Shown piece after piece: positions 5,791 through 60,590 of a DNA stretch of 64,000 nt. The stretch is from Amaurobius ferox (taxonomy: Eukaryota; Arthropoda; Arachnida; Araneae; Amaurobiidae). Position 1 is the first letter of the stretch. Each line of letters begins with the position of its first letter. The stretch is taken from NCBI GenBank assembly GCA_951213105.1, contig OX578152.1:71742680-71806679 (forward strand). Direction: 5' to 3'. The notes under the pieces are model-generated. The model was given only the letters and a program-made list of their open reading frames with translations, did not search any database and was not told the origin of the DNA. A program made the position numbers and the translations under genes.

Positions 5791-6575
5791 AATTAATTCA
5801 TTAAGATTTTTGATAGGCTTAATCGCCCTGTGTGCGAGCATACGCTGCGTTTCTGTCTGTATATGTTGTCTATAGCGAAAAATCAAAGCTTCGGGCAACG
5901 TTGATATTTACTATAAGGGTGGTTGGTCTCAGGACCACTATTTCCACTTATTTAGGGCAAATTACAGCCGTGTGGCACAATTAGCATGATTACGCACGAA
6001 TAAAAAGGGATGCGGAATGATTTTAGTTCAAAACAGGGAATTTGGAAAGGGAGTAGTTTTACCTGTATCTGTATTATTTAAGTATATCTGACGCTTATTA
6101 AGAGTCCGAGCAACAGCGGGTTATTCGTTCTAGTTTCTAATAAAATTCTTCATCTGTTATTGCAAACCAACGATCAATTCCTCACTGCAAGTACATACAA
6201 AACTGAAGTATAATGGGCATAGTTTTATTTCGAGAACCAGCTACAATCGACTTCCTGAAAGCATTTTGTGAAAACCAATAAAAGTTTGGTTTTTATCATG
6301 TAGACTGAGCAGGAAACGAGTGATTTCAAATGCTAATCCTGACAAAAATAGTATCTTTGGAAACAACGTGACTGTTGAGAAACGAAAGTACATTTTCGAT
6401 GAGGATTGATTTTCTGGAGTATCTGGGATTTAGGTGAACCGGGGGAATGATTGGGATAGTTTTGACCCCCCGTCAACGAGAAGCATTTCACTCTGCTTTA
6501 TGTTTTGTTATTTATTTACTCTTATGTGCGGTTCTGTACAGCTAGGATTTATATTAATTTATCATTCTTCGCAAT
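5791..6575. other. Unassigned repeat-derived stretch with CGGGCAACG motif
   Basis: Shared with 58430-59190. It contains AAAGCTTCGGGCAACGTTGA near 5886 and GAGTCCGAGCAACAGCGGGT near 6102. These resemble the GGCAACGCCGGGT phrase that often marks ends of arthropod retroelement repeats. No ORF or RNA gene is supported. Confidence 0.4.
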
Positions 6576-7010
6576 ACTCAGTACATGTATAGGGTATCAG
6601 TGGCGTTCACAGGAAAGAACATTGGGGTGTAATACACTCATTGCTGTCCGGTCACACATATAGCTACAGTAATACACTCATTATAACTTCGGGTCTGTCG
6701 TGTGGTCTGGGATTTTCACACTCATTGCTGTTAAATTTATTGCTGTAAAATTGCTGTAAAATTACTCAGTACATGTATAGGGTATCAGTGGCTTACACAG
6801 GAAAGAACATTGGGGTGTAATACACTCATTGCTGTCCGGTCACACATATAGCTACAGTAATACACTCATTATAACTTCGGGTCTGTCGTGTGGTCTGGGA
6901 TTTTCACACTCATTGCTGTTAAATTTATTGCTGTAAAATTGCTGTAAAATTACTCAGTACATGTATAGGGTATCAGTGGCTTACACAGGAAAGAAAATTG
7001 GAGTGTAATA
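6576..7010. repeat. 188-bp tandem repeat (2.3 units) abutting a Tc1-like TIR
   Basis: The phrase ACTCAGTACATGTATAGGGT recurs at 6576, 6764 and 6952, giving a period of exactly 188 bp. Each unit contains three CACTCATT motifs, two of them preceded by TAATA, and CACTCATTGC is also the outer end of the adjoining Tc1-like element. Block A2 has one copy of the flanking phrase and none of the repeat (59194-59256), so the array grew in A1 only or was lost from A2. Confidence 0.85.
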
Positions 7011-7339
7011 CACTCATTGCCATAAAATTTTGCGCACCAAGAAGTAATTGTGGGATGGTAACGAAACTTGGCATGAAGGTATGTGTCAGGAGTTATGCAA
7101 ATGATTAGAAATACAGTGTGATTGCGCATTGCGTAATGCCACCAGAGACCGTTGAAATTCGTTCGCCTGCCGCAGAAAAAAGGTACGCAGAGGCTTTTAG
7201 CCTGTATTTAATCTGTTGCAGTGAGCCGCTTTTTCATTAGGGATGCCGTTATAATCAGCAATCAGAAAGTTAAAATAATCGTACCGTTATAATAGTAACC
7301 GTTATAATAATCAAGAAGACAATATAATTAGCAATCAGA

Positions 7340-8450
7340 GTTCGAGAGGGGAAGAATCATCGGGCTGATGGAAGCCGCTTGGTCAACTTGACCAGTAGCC
7401 CACCATCTAAGCTGTTCTGACTTTACTGTGAGGAGGGTTTGGGACCAGTGGACGAGAGAGAGGTCGCATGCAAGGTGACCAGGCTCAGGACGCCAATAGC
7501 CGAGAAAATCGTCACATCACCCAACACGCAAGCACAGACCGAAATGGAACTGCATTATTGTTCGCCATCCGGACACAGGCAGCTCCTTCACATCCGGACA
7601 CAGGGGGTCTTGTGTCTGTCCGTACCATCGCGAAGCTGCTCCTATCTGAAGGACATTTGGTATAGCAGCGCCAATTACGTGTGCTGCCAATGGCATCCAC
7701 TCACCGTCACCTCCGTTTGGAGTGGTGTTGCTCTCGACGTGATTTGATCGCAACCGAATGGAACTACGTCGTCTTCAGCGATGAATTGACATTCAATTTG
7801 GGCAGTGATGACAAACGTGTACGTGTGTGGAGGCCCCGTGGTGAAATCAATCCTACCTTCCTGATCTCAAACCTGATCTCAATCTTACCTTCGCTTTATA
7901 GCGGCACACCCCTCCCACAACTTGTGTGATGGTATTGAGTGTCGTCGCATTCGACACTCGTGGCTCAGGAGCCAGTAGCCCACCACCTAATATTGATACA
8001 CGGAACCATGATCGCTCAGCGGTACGTTGGTGACATCCTTCAGCCACACGTAGAAGACCCAGACCGTCCGACTCACCCGAGGGCTTGAGTAGCCATTTGG
8101 ACGGCCGAGTTTCAGCCACATGTGTTGCCACTCATAGCAGGGCTCCCAGGAGGCATTTTTCAACAGGGCAATGCTCGGTCACACATAGCAAGAGTGTCAC
8201 AGGAATGTCTCCACCACATTACCACACTTCTCTGCCCTGCACAACCCCCAGATTTGTCACCGATCGAATATGTCTGGGAACACTTTGGAATGGAAAATTG
8301 GACAGCCTATGAGTTTGGCCGTACCAGAGGCGCGATTACAACTGTGGAATAAGATGTCGCAGGTCACAATACGGGACTTGAATACCTCAATGCCCGACGT
8401 ATCTCATTGTGCATTTACGCTAGAGATGGCCCAACAGGGTACTAGAACTT
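7340..8450 (+). pseudogene. Tc1-like transposase, broken
   Basis: A DD34E-type transposase that would cut and paste its element at TA sites in the nucleus. Recognisable pieces in order are the HTH region (about 7340-7440, in changing frames), THRHLRLEWCCSRRD and then YVVFSDELTFNLGSD with the first catalytic Asp (about 7695-7805), VRVWRPRGE, LPLIAGLPGGIFQQGNARSH (about 8120-8185) and PPDLSPIEYVWEHFG with the catalytic Glu (about 8250-8290). The second catalytic Asp, normally in QQDNARPH, reads Gly here. Frameshifts and the 59-bp insertion at 8052 also break it, so it cannot be active. Confidence 0.88.
8052..8110 (-). mobile_element. 59-bp hairpin mini-element inside the Tc1 transposase
   Basis: A foreign 59-bp block interrupts the transposase between the codons for ILQPHV and LPLIAG. 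It is flanked by 13-bp direct repeats, TTCAGCCACACGT at 8039-8051 and TTCAGCCACATGT at 8111-8123 (one mismatch), as expected of a target-site duplication. On the minus strand it carries CGGCCGTCC near its start and GGACGGTCTGG near its end, an 8-bp stem with one G-U pair around a ~28-nt loop. The same ends, length and stem occur in the independent insertion at 30249-30307. The stem also matches the 3' domain of the SINEs at 11078-11466, 41505-41791 and 57955-58354. Confidence 0.72.
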
Positions 8451-11077: not shown

Positions 11078-11466
11078 AGGCCAACGGCCGTACCGTGCTG
11101 AAAACACCGGTTCTCGTTAGATCACCGAAGTCAAGCAGCATCGGGCGCGGTTAGTACCTGGTGGGTGACCACCTCGGAACGCCGCGTGCTGTTGGCCATC
11201 TCGGGTGCGGTATCCCCGTGGTTTGCGCGCTAGATTTGCACGCTGCCACAAATGCCGCCGTGTTCATGCGGAGTACGATCACGTTAAACATGTGGGTCCG
11301 TAAGTCCTTCCGAGAGGTTGGTGGTAGGGGAAGGAGGGTACGGTCCCTGTGGATGCCTCCCCCACTGGGTTCCGGTCTAAATTGGGTGGCACTTCCCGGC
11401 CGTCTATACAGTTACCTTACACCTTTCTGGTAGGTCGGACGGTCTGGGTCTCAACAACAACAACAA
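11078..11466 (+). mobile_element. 5S-rRNA-headed SINE (5S + remnant tRNA + body + CAACAA tail)
   Basis: A pol III-type retroposon flanked by a 14-bp target-site duplication, CAATACGTACAATC at 11064-11077 and 11467-11480. It begins with a complete 5S-like head (11080-11196). This is followed by a degenerate tRNA-SINE head (GGGTGCGGTA to about 11253) that keeps the A-box region but lacks the ~27 nt carrying the B box. Next come the body shared with the tRNA-headed SINEs (CGTTAAACATGTGGGTCCGT onward), the 3' hairpin domain (GGCCGTC...GGACGGTC) and a CAACAA tail. It is transcribed in principle from the internal 5S promoter and mobilised by a LINE. Confidence 0.9.
11080..11196 (+). promoter_or_regulatory. 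5S rRNA-derived head with internal pol III promoter
   Basis: 117 bp aligning end to end with metazoan 5S rRNA: GCCAACGGCCGTACC at the 5' end, the box A-like region AAGTCAAGCAGCATCGGGCG, GGTTAGTACCTGG, and the 3' end GTGCTGTTGGC. It is the SINE head, not a 5S gene: it is followed directly by SINE sequence with no T-run terminator and lies within a target-site duplication. Confidence 0.85.
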
Positions 11467-11480
11467 CAATACGTACAATC

Positions 11481-13507: not shown

Positions 13508-15755
13508 TATTCACTGTCTGATTCGAAGCCGTCAGGATAGTCTTCTAATGCTTCTCCGATTTTTCAAGTTGACTGCAAGTTTTTAAAAAAGTCGTGTTGT
13601 ATTGGTGGTACAAAACTAATGGGCGAAATGAAAACGTTGTACTTCTAGTTGGATATTGGAACAGGTTCTTTATATTTGGCGGGCATGTGGAGAGCACTGA
13701 ATTTCAAAGGGCGACCACGTTGTTACTTCAGACAATCAATATCTTGAAATGGTAGGCTGTTGTCAACTGCATATTTAAATTTCATTTTTTGCTTCCTTCT
13801 TTCAATTCGAATCCAACGTATGCTAAGTCAGTTAAGTTTATTTTTTTTCCTGCTGTTTTCTTTCGAAATGTGAACTTCTGTGATAGACATTGTAAATCTT
13901 TTATGTCATTAGCTGTTACACGCTGAACATCAAATGCTGAAGGTTTGTTTCATGAGAGCATTTTTTATAAGTTCAAACCACTCCTCTGCTGTGTAAATAC
14001 ATAATGCCATTTTCTTTTTAATCTCTATTTGTGCAAAGTCACTGACATTTGGTAAGAAGGAATGTCCTGATTCCATATACTTGTGATCCCAGCATTTTAT
14101 ATTGAGCTTTTCTACCGCATAAAACATCGTAGACACTATATATTTGTTTCGGTTCTGCCCACCTATTGAATCACTGTAAGAAACAACGTGAAGATCTTCA
14201 GTTGACAGTGTTCCTCCGCAAGATTGAAGATATTTATATATGAGTGATCCAACTTCGCTAGCCCCTCTCTTTGCTTCATTTTCCAGCCAAATATTCATGG
14301 TGGCGTTTCTGTCACCTAGGTTATGGATATCTAGGTTGTAGAAGCATAACTGCCTGTTGTAGAATACTTTGTATGTGTTGATGTAGAGAATTGGTTGTGT
14401 TTTTCCTAAATCAAAGGATCTCATCAATCCTTTCCTCTCATCAATCTCATCAATCTTCCTAAACGCAATAAAAATTTTCTCTTGTTGGGACTCTATTATT
14501 TCTTCCCCTCTGGTGGTGTCAGGACATCTCAGCTTTATTAGTGCCTCCAAAGTCTGCTGATCCTTAATTCAGACGCTTCAATAGTGACCTTAAAACTGTC
14601 ACTTATTGCAGGTATCAATCTTCGGCACATAAAACGATACATGTGGAAACACCGTCTTAAACAACGCCCAGTACAAGGAGAGGGATACAGGATTATCGGG
14701 ATAAGCTGTCTGGTAAAGTGCGTGCATTTTTCTAATGTTGAGTTCAGGATTCAGATATACTCTATCACTTCTAGAGTAATGTGACTTGTAGTTTGAAAAA
14801 ACATCAATATATTACTTTTGACACTGTTAATCACGTCTTCTGGAGTTTTATTCGGAGGTTCCTTCCTGCCTCTTTTATCTGGTGAAATAACACCATTAGC
14901 ATTCTTTAGAGACAGTGCAGAGTTGAAACTACAATTCGATATCCTAAGAGTTTTAGCGTAGACATCTTTGCAGATTTGTACATCTCCTAAATAATATTTC
15001 CTGGAGTATTGTCTGTGAGACACAGTATTACCTGCTATACATCTCACTTTCTTAAAAATTTTGGCTGTCCCACACAGAAAAGACGTCTGTACATCCCAGC
15101 TATTCGTATTCCAGAAACGCTTAAAAACACCTCTTCTGCTTCTTCTTTTAAACCGATACATATATTTTTCTTGCACGTACAGTGAAAATAAACAAATGTT
15201 TTTCTGGAATACATTTTCCTTGCTTTGTAGTAAATTTTTTTCTTGCGTTGCGTCTTGATTTACAAGGCACAATCTTGTTTGGTTTCCCTGTCTTCATGAT
15301 ATTTTTTGTTGTTCCTCAACTTTTTCAAGCTGACCAACACAATGAGAAGAAGTTTCCAATTCCACGGTCACATCAGCGCCCACCATTACGGAGTAGCTTC
15401 CACCCGGTCTATCAGCGGTGGAACATCATTATGTTCAGCATTATTTGATGTACAAGGATGAGGGCTATCTGCTTCATCCACACCTTATTATGCAATTTAG
15501 TCATAATTGTTATTTTTTATTCATTATTATTTAATGAATCGATCAAAATAAATTATTTTATACAAAATACTAAAAAAGCAATAAAACCAAAAATATGTAA
15601 CATCACCTACCTATATTATCCTCATTAGAATAACACTCATAATCTGGATTATCTGTATAAAAATCTGAGCAATCAGACCTTGAATCAGTTAAAATGTCCA
15701 TTATTTCTTCTAAATCCTCAGTATTGGTGAAATCTAAATAAGTACCAAGTATCTA
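13508..15755 (-). pseudogene. DUF7869-type multicopy gene, frame-broken, with a candidate intron
   Basis: Reading on the minus strand: an acidic first exon (EDLEEIMDILTDSRSDCSDF, about 15755-15611) ends at a consensus donor (AG|GTAGGT). Downstream are a Cys/basic region (KTGKPNKIVPCKSRR) and FKRFWNTNSWDVQ. Then come YSRKYYLGDVQICKDVYAKT and SPDKRGRKEPPNKTPEDVIN (in 14751-15272), YLNPELNIRKMH and VPKIDTCNK in another frame (about 14625-14760), and a 206-codon frame (13930-14550). That last frame has the signature SYSDSIGGQNRNKYIVS and ESGHSFLPNVSDFAQIEIKK. A further broken tail ends near 13508. This order matches the arthropod multicopy family annotated as DUF7869, whose role is unknown but which looks transposon-like. 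At least three frame changes and several stops inactivate it. Confidence 0.6.
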
Positions 15756-15920
15756 AATAGCAAGAGGCTTCGCCACTGATTAAACAGTGGATTTAATCTT
15801 ATTGAGTCGTTAAAAATTACGTGTAAAACAAGTATTTAATGCATACATTTAAAGGACTTTGGAGGGTTCTGTACAATACCGACAATGTCAATTTACTTAA
15901 GTTCCATGTACCTTTTCTCG

Positions 15921-16003
15921 AGATATACTGAGGATACAGGTTTAATTCTTGCTTTAACTCAATGGATAATTATTTTTATATTGAAGTGAGTATTTAGGAT
16001 AAC
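15921..16003. other. Start of diverged part of the tandem unit
   Basis: From here on B1 and B2 differ by several substitutions per 100 bp, whereas 14227-15920 is identical to 31040-32733 with no indel. No gene is present. Confidence 0.7.
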
Positions 16004-17345
16004 ACTAGCAGCATACCCGTTCTTCGAACGGAGTTTGTTATATAAAGAAACTTAAAATTCAAAATCATGTACAAATTCCTATAGTACACTAAATGACATT
16101 GCCAATCAAAATATTCTATTAAAATGTTTAATTTAATGCTCCTAAAAATAAGTTTTAGAATATCTGTTCTTGCTGTACAAAATTATCTTCACGGGCAGAT
16201 CTGAAGAATAAAACATCCTGGTCTCGTTTGTAAACAAGTTTGTAAAAAATATAAAATTGAATCAATAGATGCAAAATAAAAGCGTTGAAATTGTCTGGGA
16301 CCCATAGTACTTATATTCTCGAAGATTAGAAGATTTTCTCGAGTATTAGTAGGCGATTACACGTACTACATCATATGAGCTTCTAAAATCTTTGCAAAAT
16401 AAAACACATGGCGTAATAAATCGAAAATGTTAACAGTCCCCGCAATTTTTAAATCAGGAGGTAGTAATTCATTCCAATATATGCCAATATATATAAAAAT
16501 ATATGCCAATATATATAAAAATATATGCCAATATACTTGTACTACTTATATTCTCGTAGATTAGAAAATATACCCGTGTATTTATAGAAGACTGCCAGTA
16601 AAAAACGTACAATATATGAGTTTCAACAATTTTTGCTTGCATAAAGCTATCTCTATGAAAGGTGTAATTGTTCATTTTTAATTAAAATATCGGCAACCAC
16701 TGGTCTTAGAAACTTGAAACATGGACTAAATTTTAAGAGAGGCTATTTCAAGGCTACCCACAAAATATCATTAAATTCGGTTTAGTTGTTCTACCGTGAT
16801 GATGTGACAAACATACATACAAATAGACAGACAGACAGATTTTCAATTTTATATATACCGACTAGCAGCATACCCACTCTTCGTAAGGAGTATATATATA
16901 AAGAAATTTAAAATTCATAATGATGTGAAAATTCCTATAGTATACTGGATGACATTTTTGATCAAAATATTCTGTTAATTTATTTAATATAATACTCCTA
17001 AAAAGAAGATTAAAAATCTCTGTTCTCGCTATACAAATTTATCCTCACGGGTATATCTGAGGAACAAAACATCCTGGCCCCTTTTGTAAGCAAATTTACA
17101 AAATATATGAAATTGAATCAATTTATGCAAAATAAAAAACGTTAAAATTATATGTGTCGAAAAAGAATTCATTACAAATTCCTTTATAGGATTCTAATAT
17201 TCCCATCGATACTTAAAATTGAAAATATAAAATATTCTACCTCTGATTCCCGGGGAAGCAGAAGGTTGATGACAATATTTGAGCACTTTTCTTCATATCT
17301 ATCGTTTTCGTGTCTGAAAATACTTAAGTTTAATTAAAATAAAGA
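16004..17345 (+). repeat. Two head-to-tail copies of a retroelement-like repeat (ACTAGCAGCATACCC start)
   Basis: Copy 1 begins ACTAGCAGCATACCCGTTCT at 16004 and ends with GACAGACAGACAG then a T-rich run and TATATATACCG near 16860. Copy 2 starts immediately with ACTAGCAGCATACCC at 16861, diverges by about 15-20% and fades near 17345. The start motif can fold (CCGTTCTTCGAACGG), and the GACA/TATA-rich end is typical of short interspersed retroelement ends in arthropods. Copy 1 also has an ATATATAAAAATATATGCC microrepeat near 16480-16530. Type unassigned. Confidence 0.6.
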
Positions 17346-17720
17346 TATCTCAAATTATTAGCCGAGTCGGTTTTCATTTTTTAGATTATATATAATTTCA
17401 CCACAAAAAATTATGTACATATTTACAAATCATTAATAATTATTTTTACAGTGATCTTAGGTCCATACTGTTCACTGATCGGCAGTTCTTTCTCATCTCT
17501 GGCTTTCGTTCCTCAAAGTTCCAGCAACATGTGTTAGGAGTGACGTCATGGAAATATTTATTGCGCAGTATGTCTGCTATAAGTGGCTATTCTGTCAGCT
17601 CACCCAAGTTAAAACATCATTAGCGCCATCGGCAGGGCAGAATATAAAAGTTCAATGTACCAGTTATTCGACACTCTACTTTTGAGTTTCAGTGCAAATT
17701 TCACCTGAGACTCAACATCT
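17346..17720 (-). repeat. Candidate 3' LTR or 3' UTR of the BEL/Pao element
   Basis: On the minus strand, directly after the pol stop codon (17712), the sequence reads TGTTGAGTCTCAGGTGAAAT, a plausible TG start of a BEL LTR. No matching 5' LTR is present because the element is truncated upstream, so the LTR call rests only on position and the TG start. B2 carries the same segment at about 34140-34516. Confidence 0.4.
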
Positions 17721-18416
17721 ATTACTGTCTGTAACTTTGAGGACTCGAACAATACGTCCTGCTCGTGTAGTCACATAACGATGGTCAGGTTCCCTTGCAG
17801 CGTCTTTACTACTAGGAGAATCAGTCATGGTCTCTTCAGTACTGTCTGACCTGGCAGGTTCATCTTGAGTGGGGTCAGAGTGAGCACCATCGTCCTCTAA
17901 TTCCATCGGGCACAGTTTCCGAACTGGTCGGATGAAAATACCTGATCTGGTCTTTATTTTGGCTAGACGTACCAGTCCATCTTTGCTAGGATATACGTCT
18001 AGAATCTTTCCTAACGGCCAATTAATTCTTTCCCCATTGTCAGTCCACACTAAGACAATATCTCCCACCTTTGGGGTATGCACTTTGCTGTTCTTCATGT
18101 GGCTCTGGCGTAACTGTCCCAGATATTCAATACGAAACCTAGCACGAAGATCTTTCAAAATTCTTTTTCGGTATACTAATCTTTTGTTCAACTGTTCTCT
18201 ATCTAACTGGTTCAAATGATCTAAATCAGCAACACTATTATCTTTGTTTTCCTGTGAAAACATTGCAGGAGTTAGGTGACTCAGGTCATTCACGTCTTCC
18301 GATACATAAGTTATTGGTCTTGAGTTAAGTAGGCTTTCACAATCACATAAGACCGTTGCCATTTCTTCATAACATAAAGATGTTTTTCCAAGAACTTTTC
18401 TCAAAGTCCGTTTCAT
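17712..18416 (-). pseudogene. BEL/Pao pol C-terminal region (integrase end and DUF5641 domain)
   Basis: A 234-codon open frame. It begins with LLNSRPITYVSEDVNDLSHL, the end of the BEL integrase, followed by a coiled basic region (RKRILKDLRARFRIEYLGQL) and the DUF5641 chromo-like domain (VGDIVLVWTDNGERINWPLG, then VRLAKIKTRSGIFIRPVRKL). After it is a Ser/Asp-rich tail. DUF5641 is the usual C-terminus of BEL/Pao polyproteins and is thought to help target integration. The frame is separated from the integrase core by stops and a frameshift at 18417-18450. It stays open here, while the B2 copy has a Trp-to-stop change. Confidence 0.85.
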
Positions 18417-18449
18417 AAGACCAACTAACCGCTTCTAAAATCCACCCCA

Positions 18450-19406
18450 TCAAGGAGCTGAAGTAGCAATGAATTTCCAAGTAATCGGTTCAATACTTAG
18501 TTTCAATTCTTCCAGATTGATGGTTTTAAGGAAGTTTTCAGACCCGACAAAATTTGTCCCATGGTCAGAATAGATTATACACGGTCTTCCTCTGCGTGCT
18601 ATGAATCTTCTAAGTGCCAAAAGAAAATTATCAGTAGAAAGAACTGTTAGCAGTTCCAAATGAACAGCTCGATAAATGGCGCATGTCATAATTAGAATCC
18701 ATGTCTTTTGTCGAACTTTACGAATTAAAGGACCTGCTACAACTACTCCAATTATCTCAAATACAGAGGCATCCTTCACTCGATCTTCAGGTAAAGTTCC
18801 TACAGGAATATGCTGTGGTCTTACACTAAATCTTTGACATACGACACATGTTTGGATAACTCTTTTGATAGTTCTACTTTTCAGTATCCAATAATTTTCT
18901 CTTAACGCAGCCATTAAAGATTCTACTCCAGCATGTCCGAGTTCTTTATGTTTCCAAATTATCAAACTCTTAACCACATTGTGGTCCGTTGGCGGAACAA
19001 TTGGAAATCTGAAATTGTCTTCATCTGCTCGCATGAAAACTTTCGTCTTGATTCTTAAAAGTCCATTAGAATCTGTAATAATTGATAGGGATTTAAGTCT
19101 GCTATTATTTTCGTTCAAGAAAACATCCTTTTGTACTTTCCTCAGAATCACAAGTTCAGCCTTTCTAAGCTCATTAGCATCTAACTTCCCAAGTTTTCTA
19201 TCTCCAGATTTCTTAGCATTTTCGGCAAATCTGTATATCCATCCAGTGACTCTTATTAATTTCTGATATGGGGATATATGATGATAATAATCATCTTTCT
19301 CTTCATTTATAGATGATACTATGATCTTCTTTTTCTCTGAATTTACCCCCTTTTCATCTGGAATCAGTTCGAAATCAGGCCAGTTATCCCTAGAATACTT
19401 CAACAC
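18450..19406 (-). pseudogene. BEL/Pao pol: integrase H2C2 zinc finger and catalytic core
   Basis: 318 codons on the minus strand. The zinc-binding H2C2 domain is clear (HKELGHAGVESLMAALRENY, then TCVVCQRF). In the catalytic core the segment that normally holds the first Asp (GxDxxGPL) reads GVVVAGPL, so the first catalytic Asp is replaced by Val. The second Asp lies in YSDHGTNFVGSENFLK. The same Val is present in B2, so the loss predates the tandem duplication. The upstream part (residues 1-100) is the RNase H-to-integrase connection. Confidence 0.87.
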
Positions 19407-19409
19407 TTA

Positions 19410-19949
19410 TCAAAAATTTCTTTTGATAAGTGTTTTCACAGAACATCCTCTTGATGGAAGATCCACAGGGTTCTGAACCCCCGGTATGAAATTCCAATCA
19501 TTAGCGGATGATAGACTTCTGATTTCCAGTATTCTATTGGAAACAAAAGTAACCCAAGGACCCTCACTTTTGATCCAATATAAAGCGTCCATTGAGTCGG
19601 ACCAATAAAATGTCTCAATATCTTCCATACTTAGATCCTTCTTTACCGTGTCTGCCAAACTTGCTCCAATGTTACAAGCTAATAACTCCAATCGTGGTAT
19701 GGATATACCTTTTAAAGGAGCTACTCTTGCTCCTGCTTGTATTAACAGGCAGGTTACTCTATTTTCCTTTTCTGCTCGAAAGAAAATACAAGTGGCATAC
19801 GATAACTTGGAAGCATCACAAAACACATGTAATGTCAGCTGCGCATCATTGAGGTCTAAACTGGATAGTCTGCGGGGAATCCTAGCGGTTTTCAATTCAT
19901 GTAGTTGATTCTTCCAATTATCAAATTTTTTAACAATGTCATCAGGCAA
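19410..19949 (-). pseudogene. BEL/Pao pol: RNase H domain
   Basis: Contains the RNase H catalytic landmarks in order: LHVFCDASKLSYATCIFF (Asp), SIPRLELLACNIGASL (Glu), FYWSDSMDALYWI (Asp) and the end NPVDLPSRG typical of BEL/Pao. It would remove RNA from the RNA-DNA hybrid during reverse transcription. It is a separate frame from the reverse transcriptase above it because of a frameshift near 19945. Confidence 0.85.
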
Positions 19950-21137
19950 TGCAGAGTCCCACGATGCTTTCTTTCATTTTCCAACATTCCCGTAGAAGTT
20001 TTGGTATTAAAGTCACAGGACATGTAAACCCAATTGGGTCAAATATTCTATGTGCTACAGATAAGATTCTTTTCTTTGTGACGGGCTTTTCATTGTCTGT
20101 ATCGATGAACAAACATGACAAGGTATCCTTCTCAATGTTCCATGAAAGACACAACACCGGTACATCCGTTTCTTCAGCATTCAGCCCATGAAATTTTGTA
20201 CATGTTTCTCTTCTGAATAAAACTCGTTGTTCCTCCATCCACGTAGGTCGAATTTCGCTGATGACAGAAGTTTCTGAGACTCGGTACGAAAATGCTCTAA
20301 TTCTTCTATTGTATCGACACTTGCAACGCAGTTGTCAACATACATAGAGTCTTTGAGTTTTTTAGTAAGCTCTTTTAGCGGTTCTGTAACTTGATCCAAA
20401 TGGTGAGTCAATCCATCAGCAAGGAGAAAAGGGCTGCAGGATATTCCAAAAACAACTCGAGTGTGTCTGTAAGTGATTACTTTGTGAGGATCGCCGTCCT
20501 TCCACCACAAAAACTGCAAAAAGTTCCTGCCATTTTCGTGTAAGCTTATTTGTAGGAAAGCTTTTCGGATGTCAGCTATTACTCCGATATTACCCCACCT
20601 GAATCTGTTCAGAATTGATGGTATCAGTGCGATCAACTTGGGTCCCTTTTCAAGGCATTCGTTTAACGATACAGAATTGTGGGTTTTGGCTGACCCATCA
20701 ACAACCAGTCTAATCTTGGTCGTTGCTTGTTCCTTTATCACTGCTCTATGAGGCAAGTAGTGTACGGCGAAATTTTTATCGGTAATTTTTTCAAGGCCTG
20801 GACTAATTTCTTCTATTATACCCTCCTTTTCTTATTCGTCAAATACCTTTTGATAAGCTTCTAGCTTGTCAATCGAATTAAGGGATTTTACTGTGTTTTT
20901 AAGCCTTTTTTCGGCCAAGTCCTTGTGATCAGATAATGGCTGATGTCCATCTAACCATGGTAAGCATACTTGGTATCTGCCTGTTTGGTCTCTGGAAACA
21001 GTCTCGTGAAAGTGTCTTAAAGCAAGATCTTGTACTTCTAATTTTGTTCGATTTTCACTCAGATCACTAATGCCCAAAGAATCTAAGTTCCAGAGATCAT
21101 TTATCTTAGCATTTTTTACACGTAGAGATAGCAACAA
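19942..21137 (-). pseudogene. BEL/Pao pol: reverse transcriptase, split by a stop
   Basis: The N-terminal piece (20832-21137) ends at a TAA that replaces a Trp codon still present in B2. The main piece (20181-20756) has RLVVDGSAK, IADIRKAFLQISLHENGRNF, VFGISCSPFLLADGL and the catalytic box MYVDNCVAS. The box normally reads YVDD in BEL/Pao, so the second Asp is Asn in both tandem copies. The third piece (19942-20238) is the thumb/connection region. With the Val in the integrase this shows that an already dead element was duplicated. Confidence 0.86.
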
Positions 21138-21344
21138 AAGGGAATTATCAAACTAGCTTTCTCTATGATCCTTGCCCATTTCTGTCCAACCTATGTGGGT
21201 ATTTATGGCTACTAAGCCTCCAGAAAGATGCTTTACATCGCCAGTAAATAATTTTCCCGCTAAGTCTGCTCCAATAAGTATATGAATTTCATGTTTATTC
21301 TTCTCGAACAATTTAAGTTTCTCGACAATCCGTTAAAGGAGTTT
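21138..21344 (-). pseudogene. BEL/Pao aspartic-protease region, truncated
   Basis: A minus-strand frame with IHILIGADLAGKLFTGDVKH and VAINTHIGWT corresponds to the end of the protease region that precedes the reverse transcriptase. The catalytic DSG motif and all of gag are absent: homology stops near 21344. The element is therefore 5' truncated. Confidence 0.65.
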
Positions 21345-21588
21345 TTCACCGGCGTTTTTCACCCACAGAAGTTTTTTGTGCGGGATGAGGTAAGGTGGAG
21401 GGAACGTCACGGTTCTGAATACGTAATAGGGAAGAAAATGACGGAATTAAGAGCTTAGCATATGGTCGTTATAGAATTTAAATGATTGAACTATGGTGGA
21501 TTGAATTGTGGTGATGTATTGATTGCGATGTATGATTGTGACGTAATGTATTGTTGTATCGTAAAAACTTAACTGTAGCGATGTATTT
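21345..21588. other. Unassigned stretch with a 38-bp direct repeat
   Basis: Contains GAATTAAGAGCTTAGCATAT starting at 21444, part of a 38-bp segment that recurs with five changes at 28746-28783, bracketing the SINE array plus LINE. The repeated ATGTATTGATTGCGATGTATGA-like phrases near 21510 are low-complexity. No gene. Confidence 0.5.
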
Positions 21589-22035
21589 CACGTTAAACAT
21601 GTGGGTCCGTAAGTCCTTCCGAGAGGTTGGTGGAAGGGAAGGAGAGTTCGGTCCCTGTGGATGTCTCCCCCACTGGGTTCCGGTCTAAATTGGGTGAATA
21701 AAAAGAAAGTTATGGAGATTGTCGCGGAGGGCGCGGTAGCCTAGTGGTTAGCGCGTGGGAATTGCACTCGGTACGCCCGGGTTCGATTCCCGCCACTGCC
21801 AGACTCCCGTCGTGTTCACGCGGAGTACGATCACGTTAAACATGTGGGTCCGTAAGTCCTTCCGAGAGGTTGGTGGTAGGGGAAGGAGGGTACGGTCCCT
21901 GTGGATGCATCTCCCGCTGGGTTACGGTATAAATTGTGTGAATAAAAAGAAAGTTATGGAGATTGTCGCGGAGGGCGAAGTAGACCAGCGGTTAACGCGC
22001 GCGAATTGCACTCGGTAGGCCCGGGTGCGATTTTG
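21589..22035 (+). mobile_element. tRNA-headed SINE array (body, then head-body, then head)
   Basis: Three partial SINE units in head-to-tail order. A headless body runs 21589-21700, a complete tRNA head plus body runs 21729-21930, and a second tRNA head (GGGCGAAGTAGACCAGCGG) starts at 21973. Units are joined by the same linker, AATAAAAAGAAAGTTATGG plus AGATTGTCGCGGAG. The tRNA head has an A box (TAGCCTAGTGGTTAGCGCG) and a B box (GGGTTCGATTCCCGCC). Short ORFs here that read WVRKSFREVGGRGRRV are translations of the SINE body, not genes. Confidence 0.82.
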
Positions 22036-22280
22036 AATTATGGTGGATTGATGGAATTTTTAAATGGATATTTTAATTTATGGATATTTTAAATCATGGA
22101 ACGATGGAATGAGGAGGATGGAATTAAGAACTTGTATTCTCGGGTCCAGGGGGCCCGCCACGAATGGCATAGGGCTTTTTCAATCCCAGGAATTAAGAGC
22201 TTGAAGAACTCAGGCCGTGGCGCTCGCCACGAATGGCATCGAGCTGTTTAACCCACGGTCGAGAATGAAAGACCACCATC
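22036..22280. other. 3' flank of the LINE, with a 15-bp direct repeat
   Basis: Contains GCCACGAATGGCATAGG and GCCACGAATGGCATCGA, two copies of CGCCACGAATGGCAT about 70 bp apart (22155 and 22226), each next to a GC-rich run. It may be the 3' UTR of the minus-strand LINE, whose possible AATAAA signal lies near 22300. Confidence 0.4.
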
Positions 22281-22438
22281 CCCACCCCAAAGATGCAACA
22301 AATTTATTATAATAACTAACTTAAAAGGGGGCGCCTGGCCACGGCAGTTACAAAAACGCCTACAAGGACTTCCGCATTATTTTGCGGGAAATAAAAATAT
22401 AGCGGGAAATGAAAACGGAAAGCCTGCCGATCATCAAA

Positions 22439-24436
22439 CTACCCAGGAGGCGGACGAGAAGGGTCCGAAAAGGACGCCCGTCTCCTCCTCCAAAAGAGAA
22501 ACTTCAATCTTAGATTCCTAAGAACTATATGAAGAGGCGGGATGCCAACGAGAACAAATAGCGCTCCGTAGGGAGAAGTCCTATAGACACCGGCGATCCT
22601 GAACAGAAAAGGTCTCTGGAGGATCATGAGCTTCCGGACCTGATCTTGGTTCAAGTCCCCCGCCTATACACCGGCGCAATAGGTAACAATCTTTTCCACT
22701 ATGGAGAGATACTAGATCTTAAGTAAACTCCTACTGGCACCCCACACCGAGCTAGAAACCCGAGTAAAGCCAGTGACAACCCCATACACTTTTCCTGCAA
22801 GGAGGAAGTATGGAAAGACCAAGACCGATTACAGGAAATAGGCAAGCCCAAATACTTAGCTTCTTTAACAATCCTGATCCGATCCCCACCAATAACGAAA
22901 CTATCAAGGCGCTAAGACATCAGTCTTACCAAAAACTAAGGCCTGTCTCTTAGCGGCCAAGACCTCAAGGCTGAGATTATACAAAACGGCAGCAATAGAC
23001 TGTAGTGTAGAGCACATAGTCACCTCCAAGTCCCTGCGGGTTTTACCTGTAACAAAAACAGCAAGGTCATCCGCAAAGGCCTGCAGGCGACAGTCAGCTC
23101 CACCCACAGACAACACCCGATTGAAGTAAATCAGCTACAGGAGGGGAGAAAGTACGGAGCCTTGAAGGCATTCCATAGCCACTCCCCTCACCACCAAGTC
23201 ACCATCAACCTGATGGGCAACAGTCCGGTCCTGCAGATAGGAGAAAACAAAACTTTTATAAAAATATGGGACAGAATAGTCCTCAAAAACCCATTTTAGA
23301 ATAAGCCAATCCATACTACCGAAAGTCGCCCTAATGTCCAGAAAGGCCACAGCAGAATGGCACACCACCATGATCTCTTCCATGATGATCTCTTCCATGA
23401 AGTCAAAACAAGCATCTTCCGTGCTCACTAGTTCTTTAAAACCATATTGTAAAGGGGAGATAATCCGCGAGGAGGACAACTAGGACTTGAACCGGTTGGA
23501 GAAGATCCGTTCCAAAATCTTACCAAATGTTGGTAGTAAACAAATGGGCCTATTGGACCTGCAGGATGACGGGTCCTTCCCGGCTTTAAGCAAGAAAAAA
23601 ACCCGTGCATTCCTGCAGGCTCGAGGAAAATAACTAGAAGAAAAACACTTTATTAAAGAGATCAAGAAAAAACTTTTATTAAAATTATAAAGATCAATCA
23701 AAATATGATAGTCCAACCGGTCCAGCCCTGGGATCTTTCCTCCCTTTAATTCCCTAAATACAAGATCCAATTCTGCAATTTCCAAATCCCGAAAATTATC
23801 AATTTTACCAAAATTGAAATTAAAGCTTTTAAAGGAAGGGCAACTGGGAAAGCACTGGAGGAGCAAACGATCAATCCGACTCTGGAGCGAAAGGAGAGGA
23901 ATAAGCCAATAGATTTTTACCAAGGGAACCAACCTTTCCGGTGGCCACTTTAAAGGTGGCCCCAAATTTGACGTGATAGTTACTACAAAGCCTCCGCCAG
24001 GAAGTAATGTTAGCTGATTTAACCTTTTTCTGATAAATAGCACGATGTTTCGAGTAACGAAGTTTAACTTGCGTAATCAACTCCGGGTCAGCTCCCCTCT
24101 CCCTCAAACTCTGAAGTCTCCTGGAACAGGCAGTCACAAAGTTTCGCAGTTTGGCCAGCTCTCCGATCCACCACGAAATCTTATTATCAGCACCTATTTG
24201 CTTACGTCTAAAGGCCGTGAGGGCCCCTTTACCATATCTAGAAACCCTTCGATAAACACATCGAGTTCGTCGATTCCATTAATGAGAGGAATCCTCTCAT
24301 GATACCTAGGGAGAAGTCTCCTAATAACGGCCTTAAGCCGACAGGCGCCAAAACGAGATTTTAGAAAGAAATTTCTTTGAAGCCCGTCCACGCGCCTGTT
24401 CCCCACTTTATAAATAATATATTTATGGTCGCTCAA
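22439..24436 (-). pseudogene. LINE reverse transcriptase and C-terminal region, broken (B1)
   Basis: Pieces in order on the minus strand: SDHKYIIYKVGNRR (end of endonuclease), VFRELKGGKIPGLDRLDYHI, SSSYFPRACRNARVFFLLKA then GKDPSSCRSNRPICLLPTFG and KILERIF (fingers), QYGFKELVSTEDA, AVAFLDIRATFGSMDW (first catalytic motif, with the usual DAF written RATF), ECLQGSVLSPLL, and the catalytic box LQAFADDLAVFVTGK. It would copy element RNA at the nicked target. B1 has a frameshift near 23900 that B2 lacks and a 15-bp repeat near 23375 (TGATCTCTTCCATGA twice). Confidence 0.82.
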
Positions 24437-25119
24437 TGTTTCTTCTGAAGAACCCCCCCCCCCCCAAACCCGTAATTAAATTTATCTCCCTAGGACTGGC
24501 AACCCTCTGGTCAGGCCTCGCCTTTCCAGTGTGAGATACGAAAAAAGGGTCCGACCCGACAGCATTGCCAACCCCAAAACCATTTTCAATACAAAAATCA
24601 ATATTTCTCCTACCCCTGACGCCTTTGAACCCGTAACCCCAGTTTTTAGATCTAGCATTAAAATCCCCCTGCAAGATGAAATCCACCCCCTCAAACTTGA
24701 CTGCATTAAGCTCGTCAACAAGGAGGTCGATATCATCACGAGGGGGAAAGTAGAGGCTAGTTACATTCAAATCTGGAAAACCATCAACATTTATACTAAT
24801 AGTTACGGTCGAAGGGGTACAAAATTTATAAGTAAAGAATAAATTTAAATTACAAATAAAAACTATGGCCTTACTGAGCTTAGATGTAAAAAATGGTAAT
24901 TTAACAGGGGGGAAGGAATAGTAATACGTACCAGGGGGGGGGGTCTTGCAAGCAAACAATATCAATGTTATTATTAAGAGAGAAAATAATAGCAAAATCA
25001 TAAGCGGGTAGCGTGTGGTTAATGTTGATTTGAAGGAAACTAGTCCCCATAATCAATCGATCTAGAAAGTAGCTCAAGTTGGCGCCTGTAAGCCATACAC
25101 CCACGATCATAGCTAGCAT
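24194..25119 (-). pseudogene. LINE apurinic-like endonuclease domain, broken (B1)
   Basis: Starts with FLQININHTLPAYDFAIIFS and IDIVCLQDPP, the conserved N-terminal Asn and Gln/Glu region of LINE endonucleases. It continues through VTSLYFPPRDDIDLLVDEL and LQGDFNARSKNWG (the catalytic GDFN box) to LSDHKYI. It would nick the target DNA to prime reverse transcription. Two homopolymers in the frame, G10 at 24934-24943 and C13 near 24453-24465, shift it and differ in length in B2. Confidence 0.8.
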
Positions 25120-30100: not shown

Positions 30101-30112
30101 TCGTTATTATGT

Positions 30113-30461
30113 TGTTGTTGACTAAATGACCTCCTGTTTCGGCGGAGCAAATTCAGGATCAGTGACGCAGGAAAGAACGAAGAAAGACACAAGACGGAAG
30201 AACAAAGTTTAATACAAGAAAACATCACTGACGAAGGTCGGAGGGGGTAGAAGATCCAGACCGTCCGACTCGTCCAGGGGACTAAGAGCACCTATTTGGA
30301 CGGCCGGAGGTCGGAGGGGGTGGAGCTTCACATTTTGACGAGGACCCAGAAGGCGGAAGACTGACTTTATCCTCACGAAACATCCATGCCTTATTCGGGA
30401 TTCGAACCCGAGTCCACAAGACAGCAGCCGAAGACGCTATCCACTTCACCGCCTGGGCGGC
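30113..30461 (-). mobile_element. tRNA-SINE of a second type, with a nested 59-bp insertion
   Basis: Flanked by a perfect 12-bp target-site duplication, TCGTTATTATGT at 30101-30112 and 30462-30473. On the minus strand it starts AGCCGCCCAGGCGGTGAAGT, has an A box (GTGAAGTGGATAGCG) and a B box (GGGTTCGAATCCC), then a CATGGATGTTT phrase. It ends in AGTCAACAACAAC. A pol III retroposon whose CAACAA tail resembles that of the 5S-headed SINE, suggesting the same LINE partner. The 59-bp unit at 30249-30307 was inserted into it. Confidence 0.85.
30249..30307 (-). mobile_element. 59-bp hairpin mini-element, empty in B2
   Basis: Exactly 59 bp between a perfect 14-bp direct repeat, AGGTCGGAGGGGGT at 30235-30248 and 30308-30321. 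B2 has a single copy of that 14-mer and no insert (47273-47286). The unit starts AGAAGATCCAGACCGTCCGA and ends TATTTGGACGGCCGG on the plus strand, so on its sense (minus) strand it has GGCCGTCC near the 5' end and GGACGGTC near the 3' end. Ends and length match 8052-8110. Confidence 0.78.
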
Positions 30462-38835: not shown

Positions 38836-39237
38836 ATTATGGTGGATTGATGGAATTTTTAAATGGATATTTTAATTTATGGATATTTTAAATCATGGAA
38901 CGATGGAATGAGGAGGATGGAATTAAGAACTTGTATTCTCGGGTCCAGGGGGCCCGCCACGAATGGCATAGGACTTTTTCAATCCCAGGAATTAAGAGCT
39001 TGAAGAACTCAGGCCGTGGCGCTCGCCACGAATGGCATCGAGCAGTTTAACCCACGGTCGAGAATGAAAGACCACCATCCCCACCCCAAAGATGCAACAA
39101 ATTTATTATAATAACTAACTTAAAAGGGGGCGGCTGGCCACGGCAGTTACAAAAAAGCCTACAAGGACTTCCGCATTATTTTGCGGGAAATAAAAATATA
39201 GCGGGAAATGAAAACGGAAAGCCTGCCGATCATCAAA

Positions 39238-41240: not shown

Positions 41241-42230
41241 TGTTTCTTCTGAAGAACCCCCCCCCCCCCCAAACCCGTAATTAAATTTATCTCCCTAGGA
41301 CTGGCAACCCTCTGGTCAGGACACTCCTTTCCAGTGTGAGATACGAAAAAAGGGTCCGACCCGACAGCATTGCCAACCCCAAAACCATTTTCAATACAAA
41401 AATCAATATTTCTCCTACCCCTGACGCCTTTGAACCCGTAACCCCAGCTTTTAGATCTAGCATTAAAATCCCCCTGCAAGATGAAATCCACCCCCTCAAA
41501 CTTGGGGCGCGGTAGCCCATTGGTTAGCGCGCTGGAGTTGCACTCGGTAGGCCCGGGTTCGATTCCAGCCACTGCCAAAACTGCCGCCGTGTTCATGCGG
41601 AGTACGATCACGTTAAACATGTGGGTCCGAAAGTCCTTCCGAGAGGTTGGTGGTAGGGGAAGGAGGGTACGGTCCCTGTGGATGCCTCCCCCACTGGGTT
41701 CCGGTCTAAATTGGGTGGCACTTCCCGACCGTCCAAACAGTTACCTTACACCTTTCTGGTAGGTCGGACGGTCTGGGTTTCAACATCAACAACCCCCTCA
41801 AACTTGACTGCATTAAGCTCGTCAACAAAGAGGTCGATATCATCACGAGGGGGAAAGTAGAGGCTAGTTGCATTCAAATCTGGAAAACCATCAACATTTA
41901 TACTAATAGTTACGGTCGAAGGGGTACAAAATTTATAAGTAAAGAGTAAATTTAAATTACAAATAAAAACTATGGCCTTACTGAGCTTAGATGTAAAAAA
42001 TGGTAATTTAACAGGGGGGAAGGAATAGTAATACGTACCAGGGGGGGGGGGGGGTCTTGCAAGCAAACAATATCAATGTTATTATTAAGAGCGAAAATAA
42101 TAGCACAATCATAAGCGGGTAGCGTGTGGTTAATGTTGATTTGAAGGAAACTAGTCCCCATAATCAATCGATCTAGAAAGTAGCTCAAGTTGGCGCCTGT
42201 AAGCCATACACCCACGATCATAGCTAGCAT
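41237..42230 (-). pseudogene. LINE endonuclease, split by a SINE insertion (B2)
   Basis: The GDFNARSKSWG catalytic box and the LSDHKYI end lie in 41237-41500. The N-terminal part (FLQININHTLPAYD, LYFPPRDDIDLF) lies in 41807-42230. Between them is the SINE 41505-41791 with its 15-bp duplicated target. The homopolymers are G14 near 42041-42054 and C14 near 41257-41270, longer than in B1. Confidence 0.82.
41505..41791 (+). mobile_element. tRNA-headed SINE, complete, inserted after the B duplication
   Basis: A complete 287-bp SINE flanked by a perfect 15-bp target-site duplication, ACCCCCTCAAACTTG at 41490-41504 and 41792-41806. B1 has the uninterrupted site near 24687. The structure is a tRNA head (GGGCGCGGTAGCCCATTGGT; B box GGGTTCGATTCCAGCC), the body, the 3' hairpin domain (CGACCGTCCAAACAG...GGTCGGACGGTC) and the CAACATCAAC tail. 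This copy defines the element ends and shows head, body and tail move as one unit. Confidence 0.95.
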
Positions 42231-47150: not shown

Positions 47151-47426
47151 TGTTGTTGACTAAATGAGCTCCTGTTTCGGCGGAGCAAATTCAGGATCAG
47201 TGACGCAGGAAAGAACGAAGAAAGACACAAGACGGAAGAACAAAGTTTAATACAAGAAAACATCACTGACGAAGGTCGGAGGGGGTGGAGCTTCACATTT
47301 TGACAAGGACCCAGAAGGCGGAAGACTGACTTTATCCTCACGAAACATCCATGCCTTATTCGGGATTCGAACCCGAGTCCACAAGACAGCAGCCGAAGAC
47401 GCTATCCACTTCACCGCCTGGGCGGC
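47151..47426 (-). mobile_element. tRNA-SINE of the second type, without the 59-bp insert (B2)
   Basis: Same element and same 12-bp duplication (TCGTTATTATGT at 47139-47150 and 47427-47438) as 30113-30461. At the mini-element site it has a single AGGTCGGAGGGGGT (47273-47286), the empty target. Confidence 0.85.
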
Positions 47427-55358: not shown

Positions 55359-55790
55359 TTAAAACATAACCGTTTTTTGTAATGTTGAAGGCCCAGACCA
55401 CACGACCAACCCAGGGGGTTTATGGTATGTTTTTTGTAATGTGATGAACTTTTGTTTGTATGTTTTTTGTAATGTGATGAACTTGAATATTAGAATAAGC
55501 TCTTCCTGAGGAAGATGATATTTCAGCTTCAGTGAGAGTTTCAAACCACCCACTTTCATCTAAAAGATTTTCGAGAACACTCATAGCCCTCTCACTCATG
55601 CAAGCCTCCCATCATCAAATCACACCTGTATTCCAAAAAAATTTTCTGCGAATGCCACTGTATGCGCTTTTCAATTGTATAGAGAAGAGAGTCACTTGTA
55701 ATAACTTTTGTTTGGCTTTCATTTAGATGATTGGCATATGCCTTGTAATAGAGAGTGCTCGTTAAGTGCTCGTCCATGCTATCGTTCAAT
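55359..55790 (-). pseudogene. MLGGLH-family gene fragment (A2)
   Basis: Counterpart of 2419-2790: YANHLNESQTKVITSDSLLY, KRIQW and DLMMGGLHE on the minus strand, then stops. The C-terminal motif region is disrupted by a local duplication of a TTTTTGTAATGTGATGAACT phrase and about 45 bp of unrelated sequence. Confidence 0.45.
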
Positions 55791-57954: not shown

Positions 57955-58354
57955 TTGTTGTTGATGAGACCCAGACCGTTCCGACCTACCAGAAAGATGT
58001 AAGGTAAACGTTTGGACGGCTGGGAAGTGCCACCCATTTTAGACCGGAACCCAGTGGGGGGGGGGCATCCACAGGGACCGTATCCTCCTTCCCCTACCAC
58101 CAACCTCTCGGAAGGACTTACGGATCCACATTTTTAACGTGATCGTACTCCGCATGAACACGGCGACAGTTGTGGCAGCGTGCAAGTAAAGAGCGCAAAC
58201 AACCGGGCGACCGCGCCCGAAAGGTTCCAACAGCACGCGGTGTTCCCAGGTGGTCACCCACCCAAGTACTAAACGCTCCCGATGCTGCTTGACTTCGGTG
58301 ATCCAACGAGAACCGGTGCTATCAGCACAGTAGGGCCGTTGGCATCTTGTACAC
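57955..58354 (-). mobile_element. 5S-headed SINE, inserted after the A duplication
   Basis: A 400-bp insertion flanked by a perfect 16-bp target-site duplication, ACATTTTATGTATGTG at 57939-57954 and 58355-58370. A1 has one copy and no insert near 5460. On the minus strand the order is 5S head (58343-58227), a remnant tRNA head beginning CGGGCGCGGTCGCCCGG without its B box, the common SINE body, the 3' hairpin domain and a CATCAACAACAA tail. It has the same architecture as 11078-11466, so the composite is a propagating subfamily. Confidence 0.94.
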
Positions 58355-59529: not shown

Positions 59530-60590
59530 CAGAGTTCGAGAGGGTAAGAATCATCGGGATGATGGAAGCCGGGTGGTCAGATCGGCCAGTGTCCCGCCAC
59601 CTAGGCCGCTCTGACTCTACTGTGAGGAGGGGTTGGGGCTAGTGGACGTAAGAGAGGTCGCATACACGGCTGCCAGGCTTTGGACACCCTCGGCAGACCA
59701 ATAGCCGAGGAGACCGTCACATCACACGACACGCAAACACAGACCGAAACGCAACTGCATCATTGTCTGAAATCCGGACACAGACAGCACTTTCACATCC
59801 GGACACAGGGCCCCTGTGTCTGTCCGTACCATCGTGAGTCGTCTGGCTGAAGGACATTTGGTATCGCGGAGATCATTAAGTGTACAGCCAATGACACGCA
59901 CACCCCGTCGCCTCCGTTTGGAATGTTGTCGATTCGACGGGATTGTACCGCAACCGATTGGAACCAGGTCGTCTTAAGCGACGAATCACGATTCAATTTG
60001 GGCAGCGATAACAACCGTGTACCTTTGTGGAGGCCCCGTGGGGAACCCCTCAATCATGCCTTGGCTTCATAGCGGCACACCTCTCCCACAGCTGGTGTGA
60101 TGGTGGGGTGCCGTCGCATTCGATACCTGGTCATCTCTATTGATCCACGGAACCAGGATAACCCAACAGTACTTTGGTGACATCCTTCAGCTACATGTTG
60201 AAGATCCAGACCGTCCGACTCAACCGAGACCGTGTGAAACTATTTAGACGGCCGAGCTTCATATCCATGTCTTGCCACTCATGATAGGGCTCCCAGGAGG
60301 CATTTTTCAACAAGACAATGTTCGATCACACACAGCAAGGGTGTCACAGGAATGCCTCCGCCACATTTCCTTCCTTCCCTGGCCTGCCTGATCCCCAGAT
60401 TTGTCACCCATTGTACATGTCTGAGATCACTTGGGACGGCAAATTGGACAGCCTACGTGTTTGGTCGAACTAGAGGCGCGATTACAACTGTCGAATGAGA
60501 TGACGCAGGACACAATACGGGACCTGAATACCTCAATGCCCGCCCGTATCTCATTGTGTATTTACGCTAGAGGTGGCCCAACAGGGTACT
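59530..60590 (+). pseudogene. Tc1-like transposase, broken (A2)
   Basis: Same family as 7340-8450, with different lesions. The first Asp motif reads VVLSDES. The second keeps Asp (QDNVRSH), whereas A1 has Gly. The Glu of SPIEHVW is Val here. The differing catalytic losses show independent decay after duplication. The 59-bp insertion at 60199-60257 is shared. Confidence 0.83.
60199..60257 (-). mobile_element. 59-bp hairpin mini-element (A2 descendant)
   Basis: Same site and length as 8052-8110, between TTCAGCTACATGT (60186-60198) and TTCATATCCATGT (60258-60270), which is now an eroded 13-bp duplication. The first stem arm has changed (TAGACGGCC for TGGACGGCC) and the other (GACCGTCC) is intact. 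Presence in both blocks dates the insertion before the A1/A2 duplication. Confidence 0.72.

Follow-up and report, generated by a model that had tools for sequence, protein, structure and literature searches.

The blocks of about 59 bp studied here in the spider Amaurobius ferox are best read as the 3'-terminal hairpin of a LINE RNA that was inserted alone, with a putative RNA fragment starting at the foot of the hairpin as the template for target-primed reverse transcription (TPRT), a reading to which we give a probability of roughly 0.58. The 3' hairpins of LINE RNAs and of some SINE RNAs have probably been copied alone into DNA thousands of times. The units were studied in a 64,000-nt stretch of the genome (the window), in sampled loci across the assembly and in putative LINE and SINE parents.

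Hairpin units in the window

An earlier, sequence-only reading of the window had described two 59-bp blocks flanked by 13- and 14-bp direct repeats, and both blocks (the 8052 and 30249 units) were recovered with their target-site duplications (TSDs; Table 1). The 18-bp end common to both units gave five window matches with at most 3 mismatches, compared with 0.05 expected, and the opposite end gave seven with at most 2 mismatches, compared with 0.54 expected; since these counts far exceed expectation and the reversed control of the genome search was empty, chance or artefact was rejected as the source of the units. The outer bases had been called identical, and the shared ends are indeed far above chance, but the templated start of a unit is CC followed directly by GGCCGTCC (minus strand, retroposon orientation) and of ACTC, with which the 8052 copy begins, the last C alone matches this template, so that the other three bases look non-templated. 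Likewise, both blocks do measure 59 bp, but their equal length is partly coincidence, as loop and junction lengths differ between the two copies.

The host of the 8052 unit had been taken for a Tc1 transposase. A second copy of this Tc1-like element and TIR-like arms are present, but the assignment is weak by Pfam, with DDE_3 matching one of the two pieces at 18.7 bits (cut-off 28.6) and the other piece giving no match. The two copies are identical at 1263 of 1507 positions. Because the insertion is common to the second copy (60199–60257), it is an old one that was carried by Tc1, and two independent insertions at one Tc1 site were rejected. Unit plus duplication amount to 72 bp (8052–8123 and 60199–60270), so that the reading frame, judged by eye, would be kept. 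By eye, each of the two inserts has one stop today.

The 30249 insertion is recent. The window contains a tandem 17-kb duplication (14227–31043 and 31040–48009) with 1.4% mismatches (229 in 16,698 aligned bases), and the duplicate of the 30249 region is without exactly 59 bases and one TSD copy (blastn junctions 30248/47286 and 30305/47270). A second empty site is provided by the SINE at ~41504–41791, which is in one 17-kb copy and absent from the other.

A covariance model of the hairpin gave 13 window matches at E ≤1, weakly including the 3' side of the LINE that the window itself contains at ~22.1–26.7 kb. The unit at 6646 was judged by eye to contain an internal insertion. A 188-bp tandem repeat (6575–7020) has the GTGTGG-type hairpin within its repeat unit, so that tandem repeats can come to include hairpin units.

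Table 1. Hairpin units in the window, their TSDs and related hairpins (scores are from the covariance model unless marked as fold z)
Feature	Position	Strand	Score
Hairpin-only LINE-tail unit within Tc1-like element	8052..8110	- (retroposon orientation)	67.2 bits, E 1.7e-14
TSD copy 1 of 8052 unit, TTCAGCCACACGT	8039..8051		
TSD copy 2 of 8052 unit, TTCAGCCACATGT	8111..8123		
Hairpin-only unit, loop of loop subfamily A	30249..30307	-	65.6 bits
14-bp TSD copy 1 of 30249 unit, AGGTCGGAGGGGGT, perfect	30235..30248		
14-bp TSD copy 2 of 30249 unit, AGGTCGGAGGGGGT, perfect	30308..30321		
Empty (uninserted) site of 30249 unit, in 17-kb duplicate	47273..47286		
8052 insertion in second Tc1 copy, shared by descent, 47/59 identical	60199..60257	-	32.9 bits
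Unit of second stem type (GGTCACAC/GTGTGG), TSD ACACTCATTGCTGT	6646..6718	+	44.4 bits
GGTCACAC/GTGTGG-type unit in adjoining copy of 188-bp tandem repeat	6834..6906	+	
5'-truncated GTGTGG-type unit, TSD ACATTACAAAAAAC	55391..55447	-	17.9 bits, E 0.026
Hairpin as 3' end of 5S-headed SINE (~11080-11480)	11396..11449	+	62 bits
Hairpin as 3' end of tRNA-headed SINE (~41504-41791)	41725..41778	+	59.5 bits
Hairpin as 3' end of 5S-headed SINE	57969..58023	-	46 bits
Weak diverged hairpin of similar topology, downstream of window LINE ORFs	22208..22262	-	E 0.021, fold z -0.60
17-kb-duplicate copy of window LINE 3' hairpin	39007..39061	-	E 0.0026, fold z -1.30

Most sampled copies are short inserts

The 3' 18-mer AGAAGAYCCAGACCGTCC has 3370 exact copies in the assembly (3.56 Gb, 276 contigs), and its reversed control has 0. 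The first matches on one contig (C1) were taken as a sample of 99 loci with 100 ends, all ending TCTTCT; copies ending TCTTCA were not systematically included. When duplications of at least 9 bp were searched for from the position immediately following the 3' end, TSDs were detected at 85 of the 100 ends, compared with 4 of 1000 mispaired flanks, and among the first 73 found their length was 14 bp in 36 and 15 bp in 19. The inserts thus carry marks of TPRT products, namely TSDs that start directly after the 3' end, 5' truncation and a common 3' end, the last being fixed in the sampled copies by the sampling pattern.

Short inserts account for 74 of the 100 ends, compared with five that are LINE-linked by motif (two with a duplication by the TSD rule and three without). 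At 53 ends the insert begins at the hairpin foot (0–10 bases outside the stem), and 21 were labelled as beginning inside the hairpin; one of these, L005 (72 bases), is a partial re-copy, which leaves 20 truly truncated. Nine ends are other long or complex cases, and 12, not LINE-linked, are without a duplication by the rule, although several resemble by eye units with a mismatched duplication. The 53 foot-starting inserts are 56–66 bases long with a mode of 59 (19/53), and 44 fall between 57 and 62. Many isolated, TSD-flanked copies of 57–62 bp were what the sequence-only reading had hoped to see, and 44 of the 100 ends are of this kind, starting at the foot. Its opposite scenario, continuation into a SINE body or variable 5' ends, does not describe the sample, in which five of 100 ends are LINE-linked and a boundary at one nucleotide occurs in 32 of 51 (see below); ordinary truncated SINEs were accordingly rejected as the main account by the insert classes and the 5'-end distribution.

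If the 100 ends are typical, ∼74% of the 3370 copies are short inserts, that is, a few thousand of the TCTTCT-end type. Other stem types and TCTTCA ends would raise the number of units further. The loop of subfamily A alone has 543 exact 29-mer matches genome-wide. In 41.8 kb of random sequence (19 places), the covariance model found three hairpins (LINE-linked, SINE and SINE-like) and 0 isolated ones. Four exact 17-mer matches on viral contigs were taken as chance.

Insertions share a target and can form arrays

The target is of the AC|ACA type: the duplication starts with AC in 85 of 85 cases and with ACA in 80%, and the four bases preceding it are most often T, T, A and C (85 ends). Each insertion recreates an ACA-type target at the 3' junction of the insert, so that the site can be used again by further insertions, giving unit–TSD–unit arrays. 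Such arrays, in which different units stand in a row with the same duplication between them, were seen by eye in L022, L058, L064, L068, L074, L081 and L085; the sharing of a duplication by neighbouring units is a by-eye observation. The L085 array includes SINE hairpins, and that in L068 has truncated units down to ∼12 nt. Of the 85 duplications, 13 have a hairpin end no more than 32 nt upstream, as do 13 of 1432 control positions drawn at random from these loci at least 120 nt away from the sampled unit. The start motif of another element lies within ∼30 nt downstream in 15 of 85 (a count without a control), and 24 of the 85 duplications have a hairpin end or an element start within ∼30 nt. 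In L064 and L144, far apart on C1, an identical SINE-hairpin junction follows GATTAATACGCTTCCC, the pattern that copying of an array to another place would leave.

The main 5' boundary falls at one nucleotide

To place the 5' boundary, 51 ends lying 1–10 bases outside the stem were matched to the LINE tail CTTCCC that precedes it. Two templated bases beyond the stem were counted in 32 of the 51, one in 8, three in 3, four in 1, five in 1 and six in 6, which puts the main boundary at a single nucleotide (CC|stem) and a minor one four bases farther from the stem. Of these junctions, 33 are clean, and 18 have 1–8 further bases that differ from the LINE tail; the end of the template (run-off) is the simplest reading of the added bases, others being possible. 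By eye, L005, L023, L066 and L068 contain partial hairpin re-copies joined at or near the foot or inside the hairpin, which suggests template jumping. In L016, the unit end runs into a copy of its own flank in inverted orientation, resembling a snap-back or twin-priming product.

The hairpin fold is kept by compensatory changes

The stem, first described as 8 bp long, is predicted to exist but to be more elaborate, with an outer stem of 10 bp (12 in the 8052 copy), a bulged U and an inner stem. For the three window units, folding gave z-scores that are modest (-2.73, -1.49 and -0.58). Covariation was assessed in an alignment (A2) of 24 hairpins, hand-chosen from 85 distinct sequences and with the structure taken from one unit, whose stems include GTCC/GGAC, ACAC/GTGT, ACTC/GAGT, ATAC/GTAT, GACT/GGTC and others. 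In A2, 92.6% of cells are paired compared with 81.3% when shuffled, two-sided changes number 58 compared with 19.8, and the covariation score is 0.395 compared with 0.187; for each measure, 0 of 500 shuffles was as high. When the partners were slid by 1–3 columns, 24.5–47.5% were paired and scores fell to 0.045–0.099. Two of the five measures in A2 were not above the shuffles, namely pairs changed on both sides (8, compared with 6.4 shuffled; 35/500) and further pair types (20, compared with 20.7; 423/500), and helix 3 is weak (72.9% paired). Pairing of the arms was also compared across combinations. A parse with mixed registers gave 56.3% against a shuffled mean of 47.3%, the highest of 2000 shuffles reaching 57.1%; in register, 22 arm combinations from the 85 distinct sequences gave 71.6% against 59.6%, with 70.5% the highest of 5000 shuffles, in a set in which some misregistered rows remain. 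We conclude that the hairpin fold is kept by compensatory changes and that the 24 chosen hairpins have a conserved structured 3' end.

Within longer LINE 3' ends the fold may be different. Predictions by RNAfold for L002 and L150 (125 and 136 nt) pair the hairpin arms with upstream sequence instead, and that for L166 keeps the hairpin. Segments upstream in LINE 3' ends (for example L002:1395–1519), GACCGTY and GGACG..GGCC, are complementary to both hairpin arms, so that an alternative fold is possible.

LINEs and SINEs that end in the hairpin

In L002, L041, L049 and L010, the unit runs on upstream into 3' untranslated sequence, and the LINE with the same 3' hairpin that had been suggested from the window does exist. 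In one 9-kb stretch (L069), Exo_endo_phos_2 and RVT_1 were found upstream of the hairpin, with an RNase_H match that stayed below threshold (23.7 bits, cut-off 25.8); in another (L072), Exo_endo_phos_2 was matched by Pfam and a reverse transcriptase (RT) stretch, with no Pfam match, was recognised by eye. L069 and L072 are thus putative autonomous parents with the same 3' end, and two further 9-kb stretches (L070 and L071) hold coding remnants seen by eye. The closest relatives of the L069 RT are Araneus ventricosus proteins named R1 elements (40–44% identity) and two unnamed database proteins (48–49%).

The LINE-linked form, GCTAACTN{2,10}CCCGGCCGTCC, has 874 exact matches. Sixteen of 20 LINE-linked loci extend further upstream, and 12 of these lie beside ACACCTTTCTGG, the target inside the SINE tail. 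LINE tails adjoining ACACCTTTCTGG, in the loop of the SINE 3' hairpin, were noted in L148, L151, L153, L155, L156, L158–L163, L165 and L109; as they sit at a target inside that loop, most such LINEs gain a SINE tail. The pattern resembles a self-made hot spot, or else a LINE subfamily of composite structure.

Both tRNA- and 5S-headed SINEs end in the same hairpin skeleton, their 3' end being shared with the LINE. A SINE tail 30-mer has 44,396 exact matches, and the 5' half of the SINE hairpin has 20,669, directly preceded by exact GGCACTTCCC in 11,238. Among 20 sampled SINE places, two are hairpin-only inserts with a duplication (L136 and L140), 11 are body-linked or nested, and the other seven belong to a different family with another ending. 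One pattern applied to all fetched loci and the window gave 32 SINE-type ends, which are not a random sample of loci, 22 with a SINE body and 10 without; six of the 10 (L030, L044, L049, L085, L136 and L140) are hairpin-only inserts with a duplication near the foot, which has one mismatch in two of them. Hairpin-only inserts therefore arise from both LINE and SINE, and more than one RNA can undergo the process. A separate family carries the SINE hairpin 5' half at 29222–29271 and 46260–46309 of the window and in L129–L131, L134, L137, L138 and L146; there the stem is unclosed and the sequence runs on as GGTCGCGCY.

Discussion

In the reading that we favour, the LINE protein would bind the hairpin, the RNA upstream of it would be lost through decay or cleavage as far as the foot, and the remaining RNA of ∼59 nt would serve as the template for TPRT.

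Alternatively, reverse transcription may be abortive, with the full LINE or SINE RNA as template and a hairpin-bound RT stopping after the hairpin or at the next upstream structure, which we regard as possible though not the expected outcome. In LINE 3' ends, a stable hairpin is predicted a few nucleotides upstream of the terminal one, and as the 5' foot of the latter is so close to the 3' foot of the former, identical 5' ends would result if the RT stopped at the foot. By eye, 5' ends also occur near the feet of two successive hairpins: four of the 20 LINE-linked copies (L152, L157, L164 and L166) begin close to where the adjacent upstream hairpin has its foot, as does L074, where subfamily A sits on the LINE tail; these copies also count in favour of the fragment-template reading. 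The SINE is less telling, since each of three SINE folds has some weak stem just upstream and is therefore compatible with RT stopping, which slightly lowers the odds of the favoured reading, but this stem is different every time (whole-fold z -1.16, 0.26 and 1.10). Moreover, SINE and LINE share TTCCC alone before the stem, yet their hairpin-only inserts start similarly. The extra bases at 18 of 51 junctions also argue against a stop, though these can follow one as well.

It is doubtful that the hairpin is a self-sufficient minimal retroposon, which as a discrete 59-nt RNA would be inserted by LINE protein in excess of longer LINE copies and reuse sites to give same-TSD arrays. We also think it unlikely that a 59-nt hairpin RNA is made from loci of its own and forms its own lineage parasitising the LINE, even though there are many near-identical isolated copies, short inserts and LINE-linked copies stand at 74 to 5 in 100 ends, and a single one of the 27 subfamily-A places listed on C1 coincides, as compared by eye, with a LINE-linked place (L074). 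A promoter search for the pol III box B with at most 2 mismatches found none in 24 hairpins (best 3–4), compared with a perfect box B in the SINE at 41500–41785, and no tRNA or 5S was found at the unit that could be the pol III-transcribed head of a SINE. The loop variants are also many, several of them on LINEs, and subfamily A itself is on the L074 tail. The block had initially been proposed as a stand-alone mobile element. Isolated TSD-flanked inserts do exist, but the unit is the 3' structure of several LINE subfamilies and a SINE; the lack of a box B within 2 mismatches, the 20 of 100 copies truncated further at the 5' end and the hairpin-only inserts yielded by SINE RNAs speak against an element in its own right.

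That LINEs or SINEs were simply truncated at random 5' positions and share their length by coincidence would accommodate the LINE-type TSDs and the 20 of 100 copies that begin inside the hairpin, but is very improbable, given that 32 of 51 junctions have the single-nucleotide templated boundary and that 53 of 100 inserts start at the foot. The stem-forming ends might suggest a fold-back element or DNA transposon bounded by short inverted repeats, but such an origin is contradicted by the 3'-anchored truncation, since 5'-truncated copies have intact TSDs, and by the LINE parents and partial re-copies (L005, L023 and L066). A self-cleaving ribozyme at the hairpin foot was also considered, and no fitting fold was seen by eye.

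Hairpin-only inserts allow one to ask, as in a natural experiment, whether RNA decay or RT stopping determines where a retroposed copy begins, and they bear on the minimal template of TPRT and on the conversion of LINE target sites into arrays. Inserts of at most 60 bp that leave 14-bp duplications can escape repeat annotation.

LINE 3' hairpins, TPRT and TSDs are already known; what appears from these sequences to be a discrete hairpin-only product of ∼59 nt with a sharp boundary, together with reinsertion at the same site, was not found described. Literature searches, partly on side topics, returned no title or abstract opening describing hairpin-only LINE units, and to our knowledge an insert of ∼59 bases is among the smallest retroposed units. 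Rfam LINE 3'-end families gave no match up to E 10 in window 8000–8160 and L069 8200–8500; the UnaL2 LINE 3' element, an Rfam family, was not among the matches for these two regions. The R1-clade LINEs Waldo and Mino insert into (AC)-rich microsatellite targets with a TSD of ∼14 bp, and both the target and the TSD length resemble those seen here.

Other retroposons share single features. In the portion of PMC13295347 considered here, one RTE family has a (CAA)n end and TSDs that tend to start with A, and the SINE described above, which ends in CAACAACA, and the TSDs found here, which start with AC, bear a likeness to the RTE clade (Bov-B/Sauria and plant RTE); the same portion mentions no hairpin-only inserts, however, and the parents here have a sub-threshold RNase H match. 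5'-truncated LINE copies have a LINE tail, TSDs and 5' loss in common with our units, but whereas LINE truncation is placed at various positions, with lengths of 100–1,000 bp, in the part of PMC3747384 drawn on here, the present inserts are ∼59 long and end at a structural boundary. The same part describes a snoRNA-derived short retroposon of platypus that has no internal pol III promoter. It and the tailless retropseudogenes are short retroposed RNAs like ours, but the latter derive from mammalian tRNA or tRNA-SINE RNA and the platypus one from a snoRNA, whereas here the source would be the LINE's own 3' hairpin. For the zebrafish LINEs ZfL2-1 and ZfL2-2, PMC4176376 states that the 3' stem-loop is needed for retrotransposition and is bound by ORF2. 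Stringent-type LINEs (UnaL2, ZfL2-1/ZfL2-2) and their SINEs have a 3'-terminal stem-loop like the present unit; the UnaL2/ZfL2 stem-loop, however, is part of a LINE or SINE, whereas the A. ferox hairpin is commonly inserted alone.
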